Assembly (NCBI GenBank): GCA_012837155.1
Contig: CP051546.1
Location: 591,474-655,473, forward strand
DNA length: 64,000 nt
Direction: 5' to 3'
From: Flavobacterium sp.
GTDB taxonomy: Bacteria; Bacteroidota; Bacteroidia; Flavobacteriales; Flavobacteriaceae
The translations under genes and the position numbers were made by a program. Positions 30,827-36,652 of the stretch are shown one piece after another (positions within the stretch are counted from its first letter, which is position 1; each line of letters begins with the position of its first letter). The notes under the pieces are model-generated. The model did no database searches. It saw only the letters and a program-made list of their open reading frames with translations, and was not told where the DNA came from.

Positions 30827-33800
30827 TTAGCCTTTCTCTGACAATCTCAAAATATCTCCAAAAACGCCTCTCGCCGTAACTGCTGATCCTGCTCCAGCAC
30901 CTTGAATTACGATAGGCCTGTCTCCATAAGATTCGGTGTAAATTTCGAAGAAGAATCCGAGCCTTTCAATCCGCCCAAAGCGGTATCCGAAGGTACGGAA
31001 ACTAATTTTACTTCGAGGTTTCCTTTGTCATTTTGTAAATCACCCGATAATTCGCCAATGTATCTCAAAACGTGATTAGGCTGTTGTTCGCCTTTTATTT
31101 TAGCATAAATAGGATCGAATTCTCGCAATTTATTCAAGAAATCAGAAACACCTCCTTCTCTCAAATGCTCTGGAATTAGGTTTTGAATGTTGATTTCTTC
31201 AAATTCATTTTGCAAGTCTAGTTCTCTTGCCAAAATTAGCAATTTTCTGCCCACATCGTTCCCGCATAAATCTTCTCTTGGATCGGGTTCGGTATAACCG
31301 TTATCGATGGCTTCTTTCAAAATTTCGCTAAACGGAACGTCTTTTGCCGAGAAATTATTGAATAAATAACTCAAAGTCCCAGAGAAAACTCCTTTGATTT
31401 TGGTAATATTTTCGCCCGAAAGATGTAATAATTTTATGGTGTCTATCAATGGCAAACCTGCGCCAACATTGGTTTCGTATAAATAATTCTTTTGGTTTTC
31501 TGCCAATACTTTTCGCAAGTCCTTATAAAATTTATAACTCAAGGTATTGGCTACTTTATTAGAAGAAATTAAGTCGAAACTACTTTCGGCTAATTTTACA
31601 TAATTTTCAACAAATGGAGCACTTGCCGTGTTGTCAACCGCAATCAAATTTTCTAAATTATTTTCATTGGCGTAAGCTATAATATCATCGATTGTATACG
31701 AAAAACCGTTGTTTTGAATCTCATTTTTCCAATTTTGAGAAACGCCATTCTTGTTTAAAAGTACCTTTTTAGAATTGGCAATCGCAAAAATATTCAATCT
31801 AATATCTTTTCGTTTTTCGATGGTTGCCGCCGACTCTAAAATTTGATTAATCAATGTTCCTCCAACTAATCCGTGACCAAAAACAGCGATATTTATTTTC
31901 TTAGAAACTCCAAAAATCTCGCCGTGAATCACATTTAAGGCTTTGTGAAGTTGTGATTTTTTAACCACCAAACTCACATTTTTGCCCGTTATGGTGTTGT
32001 TAAAAAGAATTGGCACCACTTTGTTCTTAATCAAGGCGGTGTATGGTTTATGAAAAGTGCTCAAATCCTGACCGATTATCGAAATTACCGAAACATCATC
32101 GGTTACAGAAATCTTGTTTACATCTTTCGAATAGAAATCATTTTCGAATTCTTTTTCGAGTTCAATCATTGCTTTTGTTGCTTGGTCGGCAGCAACCACC
32201 AGACCAATGCCTCTTTCGGATGAGCCTTGCGAAATAATACTTACACTAATATTGTTATCGCCCATTACCCTGAAAATTCGCGCATCAACTCCTGTTTTTC
32301 CTAGCAATCCTCTTCCTTCAAGGTTTACTAATGCTACATTTTCGAGAACCGAAAGCGTTTTTATTCCTTCCTTATTTGATTTTGAAGTGATTAATGTTCC
32401 CTGATTTTCGTGATTGAAGGTATTCAAAATCCGCAAAGGAATATTTCTTTCCAATAAAGGAATAATCGTTTTGGCGTGCAAAATAGTTGCTCCAAAATTG
32501 GCGATTTCATTCGCTTCGTTAAAGGACAAACGGTCAATTTTTTTGGCATCGGGGACTAAATCTGGATTTGCCGTATAAATTCCGTCAACGTGAGTGTAGT
32601 TTTGCAACTCTTCGGCATCGAGAAAATTAGCAATCAACGAAGCCGAATAATTACTGCCATTCCTGCCTAAAGTGGTCGTTTCGTTATTGGTATTTGAACC
32701 TATAAAACCTGTGATAATAATGACTTTGTCGCTATTTTTCTTGAAATAATCAATCACATTTTTCTTCGAAATTTGTTCCAAAGGTTGTGCATCGCCAAAC
32801 TTGGAATCTGTTTTTATCAATTCGCGAGAATCCGTAAACTGAGCATTTATTCCTTTTTCATTTAACAGAGATGCTATTGTTTTTGCCGAAATTACTTCGC
32901 CTTGTGATAAAACCTGATCTTTTATTTTTTCGCTATAATCGCCAATTAGGCTTATGCCTTCAAAAAGTTTGTCTAATACTGCAAATTCTTCTGATAAATC
33001 AAGGTTTGTAAAACCATTTTGTTGGTAGTTTTTGAAGCTTTCTAGCAAGGGTTTGTAGTTGCCGTTTTTGGCGGCGATAGTCAAAATATCCTCTAATTCA
33101 TCCGTTGCGTCTCCTCGTGCCGAGACCACAACTGCAATATTTTCGCCTTTGCTTTTTTTGTCTATAATAATATCTAAAACCTTATTTATTCCTTCTCCGT
33201 TGGCCAATGATTTTCCGCCAAATTTTAATATTTTCATTTTATCTTTTTTATTTTTAAAAACAACATCCAGTAAATTGCTTAATTGATCATATTCCATTAA
33301 AAAGGCATCATGACCGTGCTGCGAATCGATTTCGCTATAAAACACATTGTTTTTGAATTTCTTTATTTCGTGATACGTTTCTCTGTTTTCATTCGCCGTA
33401 AAAAATAAATCCGAATTGATTCCAATAATATAGATATTGGCATCTACCTCAGCAATTATTTTTTCTAATGAGGTCCTGCCTCTCGTTACATCGATGGTTT
33501 TTAGCAACTGATTCATCATTTTGTATGCCGAAAGTTGAAACCTTTTTTGTAATTTTTCTCCATGATGATTCAGCCAACTTTCTACTTGAAATGACTCTAA
33601 AGAATCTGTCGAATTTCGTTGAAATTTTTCTTTGAAGGATTCTGGGGTACGGTAGCACAACATAGCGTGAATGCGGGCGTCTTCAATAGGTTTCGAAGAA
33701 TGAAGTAATATTTTTTCCTGTAAATAACAATTGGCAATCAACCAATCAGTCGATTTCCAATCCGTAGCAATAGGAATAAAATTATGCGTTAATTTTGGTT

Positions 33801-34233
33801 CCAAAGCTACCATTTCCCAAGCTATTCCGCCACCTACGGAACCTCCAATAATAGCAAATAATTCTTTGATTTTCAGAAATTTAATTCCTTCTATAAAAAG
33901 TCTAGCGACGTCTCGGGCATTAAAATCCAGATAATTTTCTATGCTGTTTTTATCAAAACCGTTGCCTGGAACGTTAAATGAAACGATGGTATATTTGCGA
34001 ATATCAATTGTCTTATCAACACCTATTAAATCATTCCACCAACCATTTTCGCCAACTACTTGAGAATTTCCGGTCAAGGCGTGATTGACTAAAACAATTG
34101 GAGCCGAATTTATTTCAGGACCAAAAGCCTGATAACTTAAATTTATCGAAGGACAAACCACACCACTTTCGGTAGTGAAATTTTTTAGGGTAATTGTTGT
34201 TGGTTTATTTTCCAATTTCAAATCTTTTATCAT
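30827..34233 (-). CDS. Trifunctional fusion: homoserine O-acyltransferase (MetX-like), aspartokinase, homoserine dehydrogenase (frameshifted near 3' end as read)
   Basis: About 1,135 residues once repaired. Residues 1-330 form an alpha/beta-hydrolase of MetX type (VLVNHALTGNSQV, nucleophile motif GGSVGGGIAWEM, C-terminal DSQHGHDAFLMEY). From about 335 (MKILKFGGKSLANGEGINKV) runs an aspartokinase with ACT region (GLLGKTGVDARIFRVMGDNNISVS), then homoserine dehydrogenase (INIAVFGHGLVGGTLINQ, NGYTEPDPREDLCGNDVGRKLLILAREL). The frame breaks at about 30947-30957. One added base continues it to YGDRPIVIQGAGAGSAVTARG and TAA at 30829-30827. It performs the first and third steps from aspartate plus homoserine activation, under a SAM-I riboswitch. 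Confidence 0.9.
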
Positions 34234-34292: not shown

Positions 34293-34395
34293 GTGTTATC
34301 TTCTCCCATATTGGGATAGAATGTAGCACCTTCTTCGTTTGCGAAGGGTTGCTAAGCTTTCATCGGGTCTATTCCCTCAAGCTTTCTTTATAACA
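34293..34395 (-). promoter_or_regulatory. SAM-I (S-box) riboswitch
   Basis: On the minus strand the leader contains the S-box core in order: GTTAT (P1 5'), GCTTGAGGGAATAGACCCGA, TGAAAGCTTAGCAACC, a TTCG-rich hairpin, AAGGTGCTACATTC, ATCCC/GGGA hairpin, then GATAAC closing P1. The GAGGGA, GATGAAA, GCAACC and GGTGC elements match conserved positions of SAM-I aptamers. It lies about 60 nt upstream of the metX-aspartokinase-homoserine dehydrogenase start, so SAM should lower expression of that operon. I see no strong terminator after it, so control may be translational. Confidence 0.9.
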
Positions 34396-34492
34396 TTTCA
34401 ATACATTTGTGAACTTAAAGGCACAAATTAACTACAAATTTTTTTAACAACCAAATTTAACACAAGCTGGTTTTTAATTCTTCGTTTAAAAC

Positions 34493-34545: not shown

Positions 34546-34755
34546 TTAGATAAAAAGCGTTTCATTTTCTTCAGAATACATTAAAGATACTAGAGAATGC
34601 GGTGCTTTTTTTGGTGCAGCAATAGGCTTTTGACTGATGCCAAACTTGGTATGTGTTAATTCAGTAGTTGTTTGGGTCAAAGATTTTTCCTTTTTACTGA
34701 TATTCAAACTTTTAAAAAACTGAATTACTTTTGATGTATCTATTGGTTTTTTCAT
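34546..34755 (-). CDS. Small hypothetical protein
   Basis: The 69-residue protein starts MKKPIDTSKVIQFFKSLNIS and is rich in K, T and S in the middle. No signal peptide, membrane segment or domain is visible. It lies between metY and the metX fusion on the same strand, with a hairpin after it. Its frame is unbroken and its codon use resembles its neighbours, which is the only support for it being real. I do not recognise it. Confidence 0.5.
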   Translation of the reverse strand: MKKPIDTSKVIQFFKSLNISKKEKSLTQTTTELTHTKFGISQKPIAAPKKAPHSLVSLMYSEENETLFI

Positions 34756-34834: not shown

Positions 34835-36114
<1,280 letters not shown>

Positions 36115-36204
36115 AATTTTAATTTTATAATTGATTTTTAGATTTTAAAACTGAATCTATTTCAGCTTTATTTTATGGATTTAATTTATTTTGATGTTTT
36201 GAAC

Positions 36205-36246
36205 AGAAAAGCAAAAACCCTTTTAGAAACGAATCCAAAAGGGTTT
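36205..36246 (-). terminator. Attenuator terminator 2 upstream of metY
   Basis: On the minus strand AAACCCTTTT pairs with AAAAGGGTTT (36246-36237 with 36224-36215), followed by a T5 run. It comes after the second leader peptide and before metY. Its 5' arm can instead pair with 36270-36280, immediately after the leader-peptide stop. Confidence 0.75.
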
Positions 36247-36278
36247 AAAAGTTGTGTTATAAACTTATACTTTCGGAA

Positions 36279-36368
36279 TCAACAGACACAAATATGCATC
36301 ATGGCTTTTGCACAAATCATAGATTTGACATTGCACGAGTTCATTTGTTTTTGTTTTAAGTTATTCAT
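36279..36368 (-). CDS. Met/Cys-rich leader peptide 2 of metY
   Basis: The 29-residue frame starts at ATG 36368 and contains five Met (1, 9, 17, 23, 24) and four Cys (12, 19, 27, 29), ending MICAKAMMHICVC and then TGA. This composition is far from random and names the two amino acids that the metY product serves. The stop overlaps a segment (36270-36280) that can pair with the 5' arm of the following terminator, as in classical attenuation. There is no promoter consensus between it and the first module. Confidence 0.65.
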   Translation of the reverse strand: MNNLKQKQMNSCNVKSMICAKAMMHICVC

Positions 36369-36396
36369 AATAGGTATATTTTGTGTTTGATATTTC

Positions 36397-36430
36397 AAAA
36401 AAAAAGCCTCCCGTTTTGTGGGAGGCTTTT
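36397..36430 (-). terminator. Attenuator terminator 1 upstream of metY
   Basis: GCCTCCC and GGGAGGC form a perfect 7-bp stem around a 7-nt loop, followed on the minus strand by T9. It comes 24 bp after leader peptide 1. TCCCACA in its 5' arm and loop is exactly complementary to TGTGGGA in codons 17-18 of leader 1. Confidence 0.8.
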
Positions 36431-36453
36431 GCTATATAATTTTGATTTAAAAT

Positions 36454-36522
36454 TTAAGCACTAAACGTCCCACAGGATTTTTCCTGCATGGCTTTAGAAA
36501 TATTGCAAACATTTAAATTCAT
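36454..36522 (-). CDS. Leader peptide 1 of metY (22 residues)
   Basis: Frame from ATG 36522 to TAA 36454: MNLNVCNISKAM, then QEKSCGTFSA. It has Cys at 6 and 17 and Met at 12. The codons for Cys17-Gly18 (TGTGGGA) are complementary to the arm of the terminator that follows, so ribosome position could decide between antiterminator and terminator. The AAAGCCATG segment (K-A-M) is shared with leader 2. An A-rich stretch precedes the ATG, as is usual for Bacteroidota starts. Confidence 0.6.
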   Translation of the reverse strand: MNLNVCNISKAMQEKSCGTFSA

Positions 36523-36652
36523 TTTTTTTCTTTTTTCGTTGAGCAAATTTGCAAACTATTATTTAAATATCCAAATAATTTTCATTTTTTTATTTGTGTC
36601 TAATTAGAAATCAATTCTCTAGAAAGAAGTATTTTGTTTTCTATAAATTCCT

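Follow-up and report, generated by a model that had tools for sequence, protein, structure and literature searches.

Candidate tandem Met/Cys leader-peptide attenuators upstream of metY in Flavobacterium, at a position held by SAM-I riboswitches in sister genera

The classic leader-peptide attenuators are those of the trp, his, leu, thr and phe type, and methionine genes are usually described as being under the control of S-adenosylmethionine (SAM) riboswitches, T-boxes or MetJ-type repressors. Here we examine the region upstream of metY, coding for an O-acetylhomoserine/O-acetylserine sulfhydrylase, in a 64,000-nt stretch of the genome of Flavobacterium sp. (contig CP051546.1, positions 591,474–655,473 of the forward strand; hereafter the window, whose own coordinates are used throughout). 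This region contains two consecutive modules on the minus strand, each composed of a short reading frame with methionine (Met) and cysteine (Cys) codons and a predicted intrinsic terminator. The modules are like the classic attenuators in having a short frame rich in end-product codons, the 1:2, 2:3 and 3:4 pairing scheme and a terminator before biosynthetic genes; unlike them, they combine Met and Cys codons, occur in Bacteroidota and often stand two in a row.

The closest described systems share only part of this arrangement. In Mycobacterium, short Cys-containing leader frames reportedly precede cys operons (Canestrari 2020, as cited in PMC13236596). For this genus, PMC1262725 likewise places Cys codons in short frames upstream of sulfur genes, but intrinsic terminators, Met codons and covarying strands distinguish the Flavobacterium modules from the leaders as presented there. 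In Streptomyces lividans, the proposed metL leader (RCMCRRMCAF) ahead of metNIQ mixes Cys and Met codons before methionine genes; however, it is single, has a leaderless start and is stated to lack a typical Rho-independent terminator, and the passages on it mention no conservation (PMC8079986). The mgtCBR leader of Salmonella carries two short frames and tandem attenuators, which respond to two different signals, ATP and proline (PMC3641672), whereas both module types described here contain Met and Cys codons, in differing proportions, and precede sulfur genes. The SAM-I riboswitch (RF00162) found before metY in sister genera has the same gene, position and pathway, but it senses SAM directly and has no reading frame, and scans of leader-bearing Flavobacteriaceae loci did not find it before metY.

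Within the same genus, a study of F. psychrophilum already speaks of strong clues that operons for amino-acid biosynthesis are preceded by leader-peptide attenuation; the section in question names pheA, hisG and other elements, not met or cys genes, and the words metY, homoserine and sulfhydrylase are absent from the main text (PMC9723704). A prior reading of the window from its letters only (hereafter, the sequence-only reading) knew of no Met/Cys double attenuator in Bacteroidota; these general clues qualify that statement, and a search of the open-licence literature found neither the Met/Cys tandem form nor its exchange with SAM-I described, which, with most subscription papers outside the search, does not prove absence in print. 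The class of leader-peptide attenuation is known, and what would be new is what is sensed, the tandem form and the exchange with SAM-I.

Two leader/terminator modules upstream of metY

On the minus strand, leader 1, terminator 1, leader 2 and terminator 2 follow one another and lead to metY, which starts at 36114 (Table 1). As described in the sequence-only reading, and as we recomputed, leader 1 has 22 codons with two Met (start counted) and two Cys and is followed by a perfect terminator, and leader 2 has 29 codons with five Met (start counted) and four Cys and is followed by terminator 2. A run of nine T, four of them within the stem, closes terminator 1 at 36397, and only 28 nt separate this tract from leader 2. 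The folding energy z-scores of the two modules are -3.94 (36390–36530) and -2.57 (36203–36375). Both alternative pairings proposed in that reading were also recovered: TGTGGGA (36474–36468, from codon 17 of leader 1) complements TCCCACA (36423–36417) of the terminator arm in 7/7 pairs, and 36280–36270 faces 36241–36231 with nine Watson-Crick pairs, one G-U and one T-T mismatch, in agreement with the 10 of 11 pairs originally estimated. The hairpin between strands 1 and 2 of module 1, in which CAGGA (36486–36482) can pair with TCCTG (36477–36473), had been overlooked. Neither leader peptide matched a family in NCBIfam at E up to 1 (leader 1 was queried without its start codon), and a DNA search of the same genome found no second copy of the region.

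Table 1. Features of the metY region, in coordinates of the window.
Feature	Coordinates	Strand	Details
Promoter-like element TTTGG...CAAATTTG upstream of leader 1	36544..36575	minus	Match to a relaxed pattern, kept in relatives
Leader peptide 1, MNLNVCNISKAMQEKSCGTFSA	36454..36522	minus	ATG at 36522, stop ends at 36454; read from sequence
Module 1 strand 1 (CAGGA)	36482..36486	minus	Directly 3' of the Met12 codon; hairpin with strand 2
Module 1 strand 2 (TCCTGTGGGA)	36468..36477	minus	Alternative partners, strand 1 or strand 3
Terminator 1 (strands 3:4) and T tract	36397..36430	minus	11 perfect pairs, six G-C (36430–36402)
Leader peptide 2, MNNLKQKQMNSCNVKSMICAKAMMHICVC	36279..36368	minus	Read from sequence
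Module 2 strand 2 (GATTCCGAAAG)	36270..36280	minus	At and just past the leader 2 stop codon
Terminator 2	36205..36246	minus	Stem 36246–36215, 13 pairs
metY (O-acetylhomoserine/O-acetylserine sulfhydrylase), presumed regulated gene	34993..36114	minus	TIGR01326, 544 bits (cut-off 495)
SAM-I riboswitch ahead of the metX-thrA fusion	34293..34396	minus	RF00162, 74.1 bits
Homoserine O-acetyltransferase-like/aspartate kinase/homoserine dehydrogenase fusion	30907..34233	minus	Behind the SAM-I riboswitch

Module 1 was examined in an alignment of 27 sequences (A1: the window plus 26 of 29 thinned named sequences, three being omitted). Hairpin 1:2 and the terminator together were paired in 94.4% of cells, with a covariation of 0.351 versus 0.168 that was reached by 0/500 shuffles, and 9/15 pairs had both partners altered in one or more sequences. 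Hairpin 1:2 by itself was paired in 86.7% of cells; its outermost pair fails in 11/20, and one of its pairs appears as AU, CG or UG across the 27 sequences. The antiterminator (2:3) was analysed in 21 chosen module 1 sequences of the GCAGNG type (A3), where it is paired in 100% of cells with a covariation of 0.229 versus 0.088 (0/500 shuffles), the compensatory changes being confined to one of its six pairs (A-U 13, C-G 4, G-C 3, G-U 1). Strand 4 tracks the same changes, so that strands 2, 3 and 4 vary together. For module 1 sequences of all types, including that of the window, the helix formed with a sequence's own arm scored above the mean for swapped arms in 48/50 distinct cases. Additionally, the antiterminator element GCAGAG is conserved while being read in two frames, and in two loci (L195 and L196) a frameshift affects the last part of leader 2 and the RNA is retained; because of these cases, retained pairing rather than peptide sequence would seem to explain the conservation. 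In its sequence, module 1 has the classic four-strand design, with a 1:2 hairpin just past the last control codon, a 2:3 antiterminator and a 3:4 terminator that share strand 3.

The corresponding alignment of module 2 (A2: the window plus 24 of 27 thinned named sequences, three omitted) shows the antiterminator paired in 91.4% of cells and a terminator that covaries, with both bases of 5/12 consensus pairs altered in one or more sequences. An intrinsic terminator is thereby predicted between leader and gene in both modules and covaries in A1 as well as in A2, and in module 1 the antiterminator, itself paired and covarying, shares one of the terminator arms. Eight or nine of the 25 sequences have small hairpins in the stretch that separates strand 2 of module 2 from strand 3, among them L177, L178, L200, L202, L208, L214 and L217; these hairpins are of two types, AAAGAT/ATCTTT and ATAGTT/AACTAT, and would sit inside the antiterminator loop.

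Both frames are enriched in codons for the amino acids of the pathway itself. Excluding the start codon, Met makes up 15.6% and Cys 9.0% of 51 distinct module 1 peptides (24.6% together), and 20.4% and 16.2% of 55 distinct module 2 peptides (36.6% together), as compared with 0.75% Met and 0.49% Cys in four genes of the window. Some leaders are nearly poly-Met, such as MNFSSSLTMMVMMMMDMMMSPPSYCHKSTR (L071). Since every distinct peptide counted has internal Met, and five of the 51 of module 1 have no Cys, the general signal is probably Met, with Cys often acting as a second.

The position of these codons was determined in sets that pool the loci from the genome search with the named loci, which partly overlap, as was also done for the promoter pattern and the folding model. 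For module 1, the 73 distinct peptides whose helix score reached 12 or more were used (lower scores being excluded); in these, Met and Cys codons are situated 4–12 codons ahead of strand 2, and each of the next three positions has at most 3%. In module 2, for which 85/95 distinct peptides were used in this and in the promoter-pattern analysis, the Cys codons cluster at fixed places. We then modeled the folding of transcripts ending ahead of strand 4 while varying the position of the ribosome. For module 1, the mean probability of the antiterminator, P(2:3), was predicted to be 0.95 with a ribosome at the last Met/Cys codon, 0.49 with no ribosome and 0.06 with a ribosome at the stop codon; for 90 module 2 leaders, the corresponding values were 0.88 when stalled, 0.83 with no ribosome and 0.01 at the stop codon. 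The placement of the control codons would therefore suit a stalled ribosome that leaves strand 2 free and a finished ribosome that covers it.

Conservation in Flavobacterium and exchange with SAM-I

A search of 121 genomes of the genus gave 71 strong metY places, of which 70 were examined (G058 was left out). With a strict filter, demanding that a good terminator stand behind a frame whose internal Met+Cys content is 15% or more, all inside 480 nt, at least one module was found in 62/70 upstream regions and in 0/1400 dinucleotide shuffles; two modules were found in 23/70 regions and in no shuffle. Likewise, 0/1000 dinucleotide shuffles of the 480 nt of the window itself yielded a module, although only its leader 2 passes the strict filter, leader 1 (13.6% internal Met+Cys) passing only a looser one. 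A chance origin of the modules was rejected on these shuffle counts. A looser automatic scan of 900 nt upstream of metY found modules in 67/70 regions (35 with both types, 19 with module 2 only and 13 with module 1 only), modules being typed by the terminator arm, by which L069 was filed under module 1 in spite of its module 2-like look. Among the three negative loci, L031 has a decayed module pair by eye, and L008 and L064 show no clear module. The 80 named loci, at least 16 of which are identical to a genus locus over 400 nt, comprise 36 with both types, 18 with module 2 only, 15 with module 1 only and 11 scored as having none: L171, L183 (in which a module is visible by eye) and nine from outside Flavobacterium, all nine with a SAM-I riboswitch directly upstream of metY. 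Carriers of modules include F. johnsoniae, F. psychrophilum, F. frigoris, F. branchiophilum and Christiangramia gaetbulicola. As the sequence-only reading had anticipated for an alignment across the family, the leaders, their Met/Cys codons and the terminator/antiterminator pairs are kept across Flavobacterium and some other genera, and module 1 covaries.

Some genomes have a small frame between module 2 and metY. A different frame, beginning MKRLQSV, which several relatives have ahead of metY, was not considered further because in L009 it overlaps a SAM-II riboswitch on the opposite strand. Such opposite-strand SAM-II riboswitches occur some 300–700 nt upstream of metY in L009, L018, L167, L211 and L223, where they presumably serve a divergent gene; an Rfam scan found none in the window.

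Outside the genus, metY was found at E ≤ 1e-130 in 134 Flavobacteriaceae genomes, and 68 upstream regions were examined, excluding G127 at a contig edge; this sample leans to close relatives because the best-scoring regions were taken. SAM-I, called with Rfam since a regular expression missed many true cases, was directly upstream of metY in 53 of them, leaders were present in six, both in none, and neither in nine. Conversely, an Rfam scan of 22 genus loci gave no RF00162 match upstream of metY. In six of the nine regions with neither element (L073, L112, L121, L127, L131 and L137), metY directly follows the end of a metK-like gene, as judged from how the preceding frame ends (two pieces were tested), with no leader or SAM-I between them. 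The covariance model of module 1 matched at E ≤ 1e-4 in 13/119 other genera, ten of these matches being just upstream of metY by coordinates.

The exchange is not a law. We looked at ten of 13 places outside the family, and in one of them (L162, 1081–1359, from a more distant Bacteroidota family) a Met/Cys leader and its terminator are directly followed by SAM-I and metY, a predicted mixed tandem of tRNA and SAM sensing. The other nine have a SAM-I-like sequence, confirmed by Rfam in three, and no leader.

Modules also occur before other genes. The module 1 covariance model gave matches at E ≤ 0.01 in 54/61 genus genomes, not all of the weak ones being real, and a single one in the genome of the window, that before metY. 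Of twenty match regions that were read, 16 contain one or more candidate Met/Cys leaders; the candidate in L286 is probably spurious. The genes behind the modules include, in L279, one for the PAPS/APS (3'-phosphoadenosine 5'-phosphosulfate/adenosine 5'-phosphosulfate) reductase CysH, followed by CysD- and CysN-like proteins (tested); in L283, an arrangement of the CysH type by size and look only, and a Cys/Met enzyme dependent on pyridoxal phosphate (PLP); in L284, a MetX-like protein scoring under curated cut-offs; in L277, an alpha/beta hydrolase that is MetX-like in look; and in L282, an OsmC-like protein. Module 1 precedes a TonB-dependent receptor in L280 and L296, which hints that this receptor takes up a source of sulfur or methionine. 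In other regions (e.g., L292 and L294) the next gene is unrelated or too distant to assign. We therefore consider it fairly likely that Flavobacterium and some other Flavobacteriaceae possess a tRNA-sensing sulfur regulon, in which autonomous modules would control metY and also, depending on the genome, metX-like, cysH, Cys/Met-PLP and TonB-receptor genes and would replace SAM sensing at metY; a module would act alone, in succession with another or, in a single distant Bacteroidota genome, in tandem with a SAM-I riboswitch. That the genome of the window has only one module 1 site, and that some of the gene names rest on weak matches, count against such a regulon. Neither the exchange with SAM-I nor the modules before other sulfur genes had been noticed in the sequence-only reading.

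Proposed mechanism and alternative explanations

Taken together, the arrangement makes it very probable that both modules attenuate transcription by way of the ribosome, each of them sensing how much charged tRNA-Met and tRNA-Cys is available, so that the double Met/Cys attenuator initially proposed for the window gains support from conservation, covariation of module 1 and codon placement. With an ample supply, a ribosome translating leader 1 undelayed would reach the stop codon and cover strand 2; strand 3 would then pair with strand 4 and RNA synthesis would end before metY. A shortage of Met-tRNA or Cys-tRNA would hold the ribosome at the Met/Cys codons 4–12 codons before strand 2, where it would cover strand 1, and the free strand 2 would pair with strand 3 to form the antiterminator and let the polymerase read on. 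Module 2 would work alike, with its strand 2 at the end of the leader and no clear strand 1, and a transcript of the window would have to pass both gates to reach metY. If this is true, metY would probably be on only when the cell is short of Met and Cys, conserved leader peptides that read Met and Cys codons would constitute another way of sensing sulfur amino acids, and the same gene would be under a SAM riboswitch in some genera and under tRNA sensing in others. The modules are compact, repeated and naturally varied, and thus suited to direct tests in F. johnsoniae.

Several observations weigh against this mechanism. Scarcity of Met would also affect the initiator tRNA, and a switch for Met starvation whose leader start itself needs Met is a puzzle. 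At -18.2 kcal/mol, terminator 1 greatly exceeds antiterminator 1 in strength (-8.0 kcal/mol), and the switch must therefore be kinetic, decided during RNA synthesis. The 1:2 hairpin of the window is weak, with a P(2:3) of 0.93 without a ribosome, and its antiterminator, of the GGG type, lies outside the 21 sequences in which covariation was counted. Module 2 is less well supported than module 1: its antiterminator is backed by conserved pairing and not by covariation, since no pair in A2 is changed on both sides and there is no excess over shuffles; its own helix exceeds the swapped mean in 44/52 distinct sequences, but by a small margin (means of 16.8 vs. 16.1); and the antiterminator is predicted to form even without a ribosome, so that, because P(2:3) already averages 0.83 in that state, the module appears to lack a clear protecting hairpin (no clear strand 1). 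Finally, metY has no recognisable module in L008, L171 and L064, and a second promoter-like match inside leader 2 (36316–36289) could bypass the first gate.

Whether the two modules act in series depends on the position of the promoter. A relaxed pattern, TTTG-N-nAnnTTTG, is present within 80 nt before module 1 in 69/104 loci, as compared with 10/2080 shuffles, between modules in 1/75 loci, and between the last terminator and metY in 0/142 loci. The sequence-only reading had relied on the lack of a TAnnTTTG box between the modules and metY; there is indeed no exact one between terminator 2 and metY, but this by itself is a weak argument because the 81 nt ahead of leader 1 lack one as well. Since a promoter-like site precedes leader 1 and the stretch from terminator 2 to metY has none, the transcript should have to pass both gates, and two gates in series, as had been suggested, probably operate in this genome. 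This fits the window and many relatives and does not extend to all of them, in view of the 19/70 loci with module 2 only, the 13/70 with module 1 only, and G052 and G057, in which module 1 precedes a TonB-receptor gene and module 2 lies about 3 kb further on, before metY. Since modules 1 and 2 stand before different genes in the latter two genomes, they can also act singly. Both modules might then be attenuators without being in series, with a second promoter in the spacer that follows terminator 1 or in leader 2 itself, which would be compatible with attenuation by each single module; the match within leader 2 and the split in G052 and G057 are in its favour. Nevertheless, we judge this arrangement unlikely for the window, considering the short spacer between T tract 1 and leader 2 and the near absence of the promoter pattern between modules.

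Other explanations dispense with attenuation by empty codons. An arrest peptide, in which the nascent Met/Cys-rich chain together with a small molecule (SAM, methionine or copper) would stall the ribosome, is improbable but the best of these: peptides rich in Met and Cys could bind metal or respond to SAM, as in plant CGS1 and bacterial copper leaders, and the fixed places of Cys codons in module 2 agree with it. However, codon type and RNA are conserved but the peptide sequence only poorly so, as seen in the poly-Met forms, the Met/Cys mixes and the changes of frame at the C-terminal end, and several genes behind the modules are for sulfur amino acids. It is still less credible that the leaders are only small proteins, or act on translation, and that the hairpins are plain terminators of upstream transcripts; such terminators are common after an upstream gene, but here a promoter pattern lies just before leader 1, strands 2, 3 and 4 change together, and arm swapping lowers pairing in nearly all distinct module 1 sequences. 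Hardly any weight can be given to an undescribed riboswitch or T-box filling the region, with Met/Cys frames that would be accidental. SAM-I riboswitches do occupy the same place in sister genera, but no Rfam family reaches its gathering score within 36190–36620, genus loci scanned lack RF00162 upstream of metY, and codon placement is conserved. Identity of the modules with known elements was rejected for T-boxes, SAM-I being the sole Rfam family at gathering score in the whole window, and for SAM-I, whose only match is the one at 34293–34396, with none in the modules.

Neighbouring met genes in the window

The metY frame is broken near its 3' end, and the next frame continues the protein to about 34835; the product stops at 373 aa, while the open frames of most relatives have around 430. 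As the genome is 86% complete, an assembly error is the likely cause of this break (34835–35000, minus strand). The SAM-I riboswitch further downstream is the only one found in this genome. The fusion protein coded behind it gave NCBIfam matches over residues 6–332 and 333–1099, both under the curated cut-offs of the full-length models.

A 69-aa frame at 34546–34755 (minus strand), ending in SLVSLMYSEENETLFI, matched nothing in NCBIfam at 1e-5. Small frames of similar appearance, as judged by eye, are situated between module 2 and metY in L017, L021 and L027, and upstream in L031, and perhaps these frames are candidates for an undescribed small protein tied to met genes.
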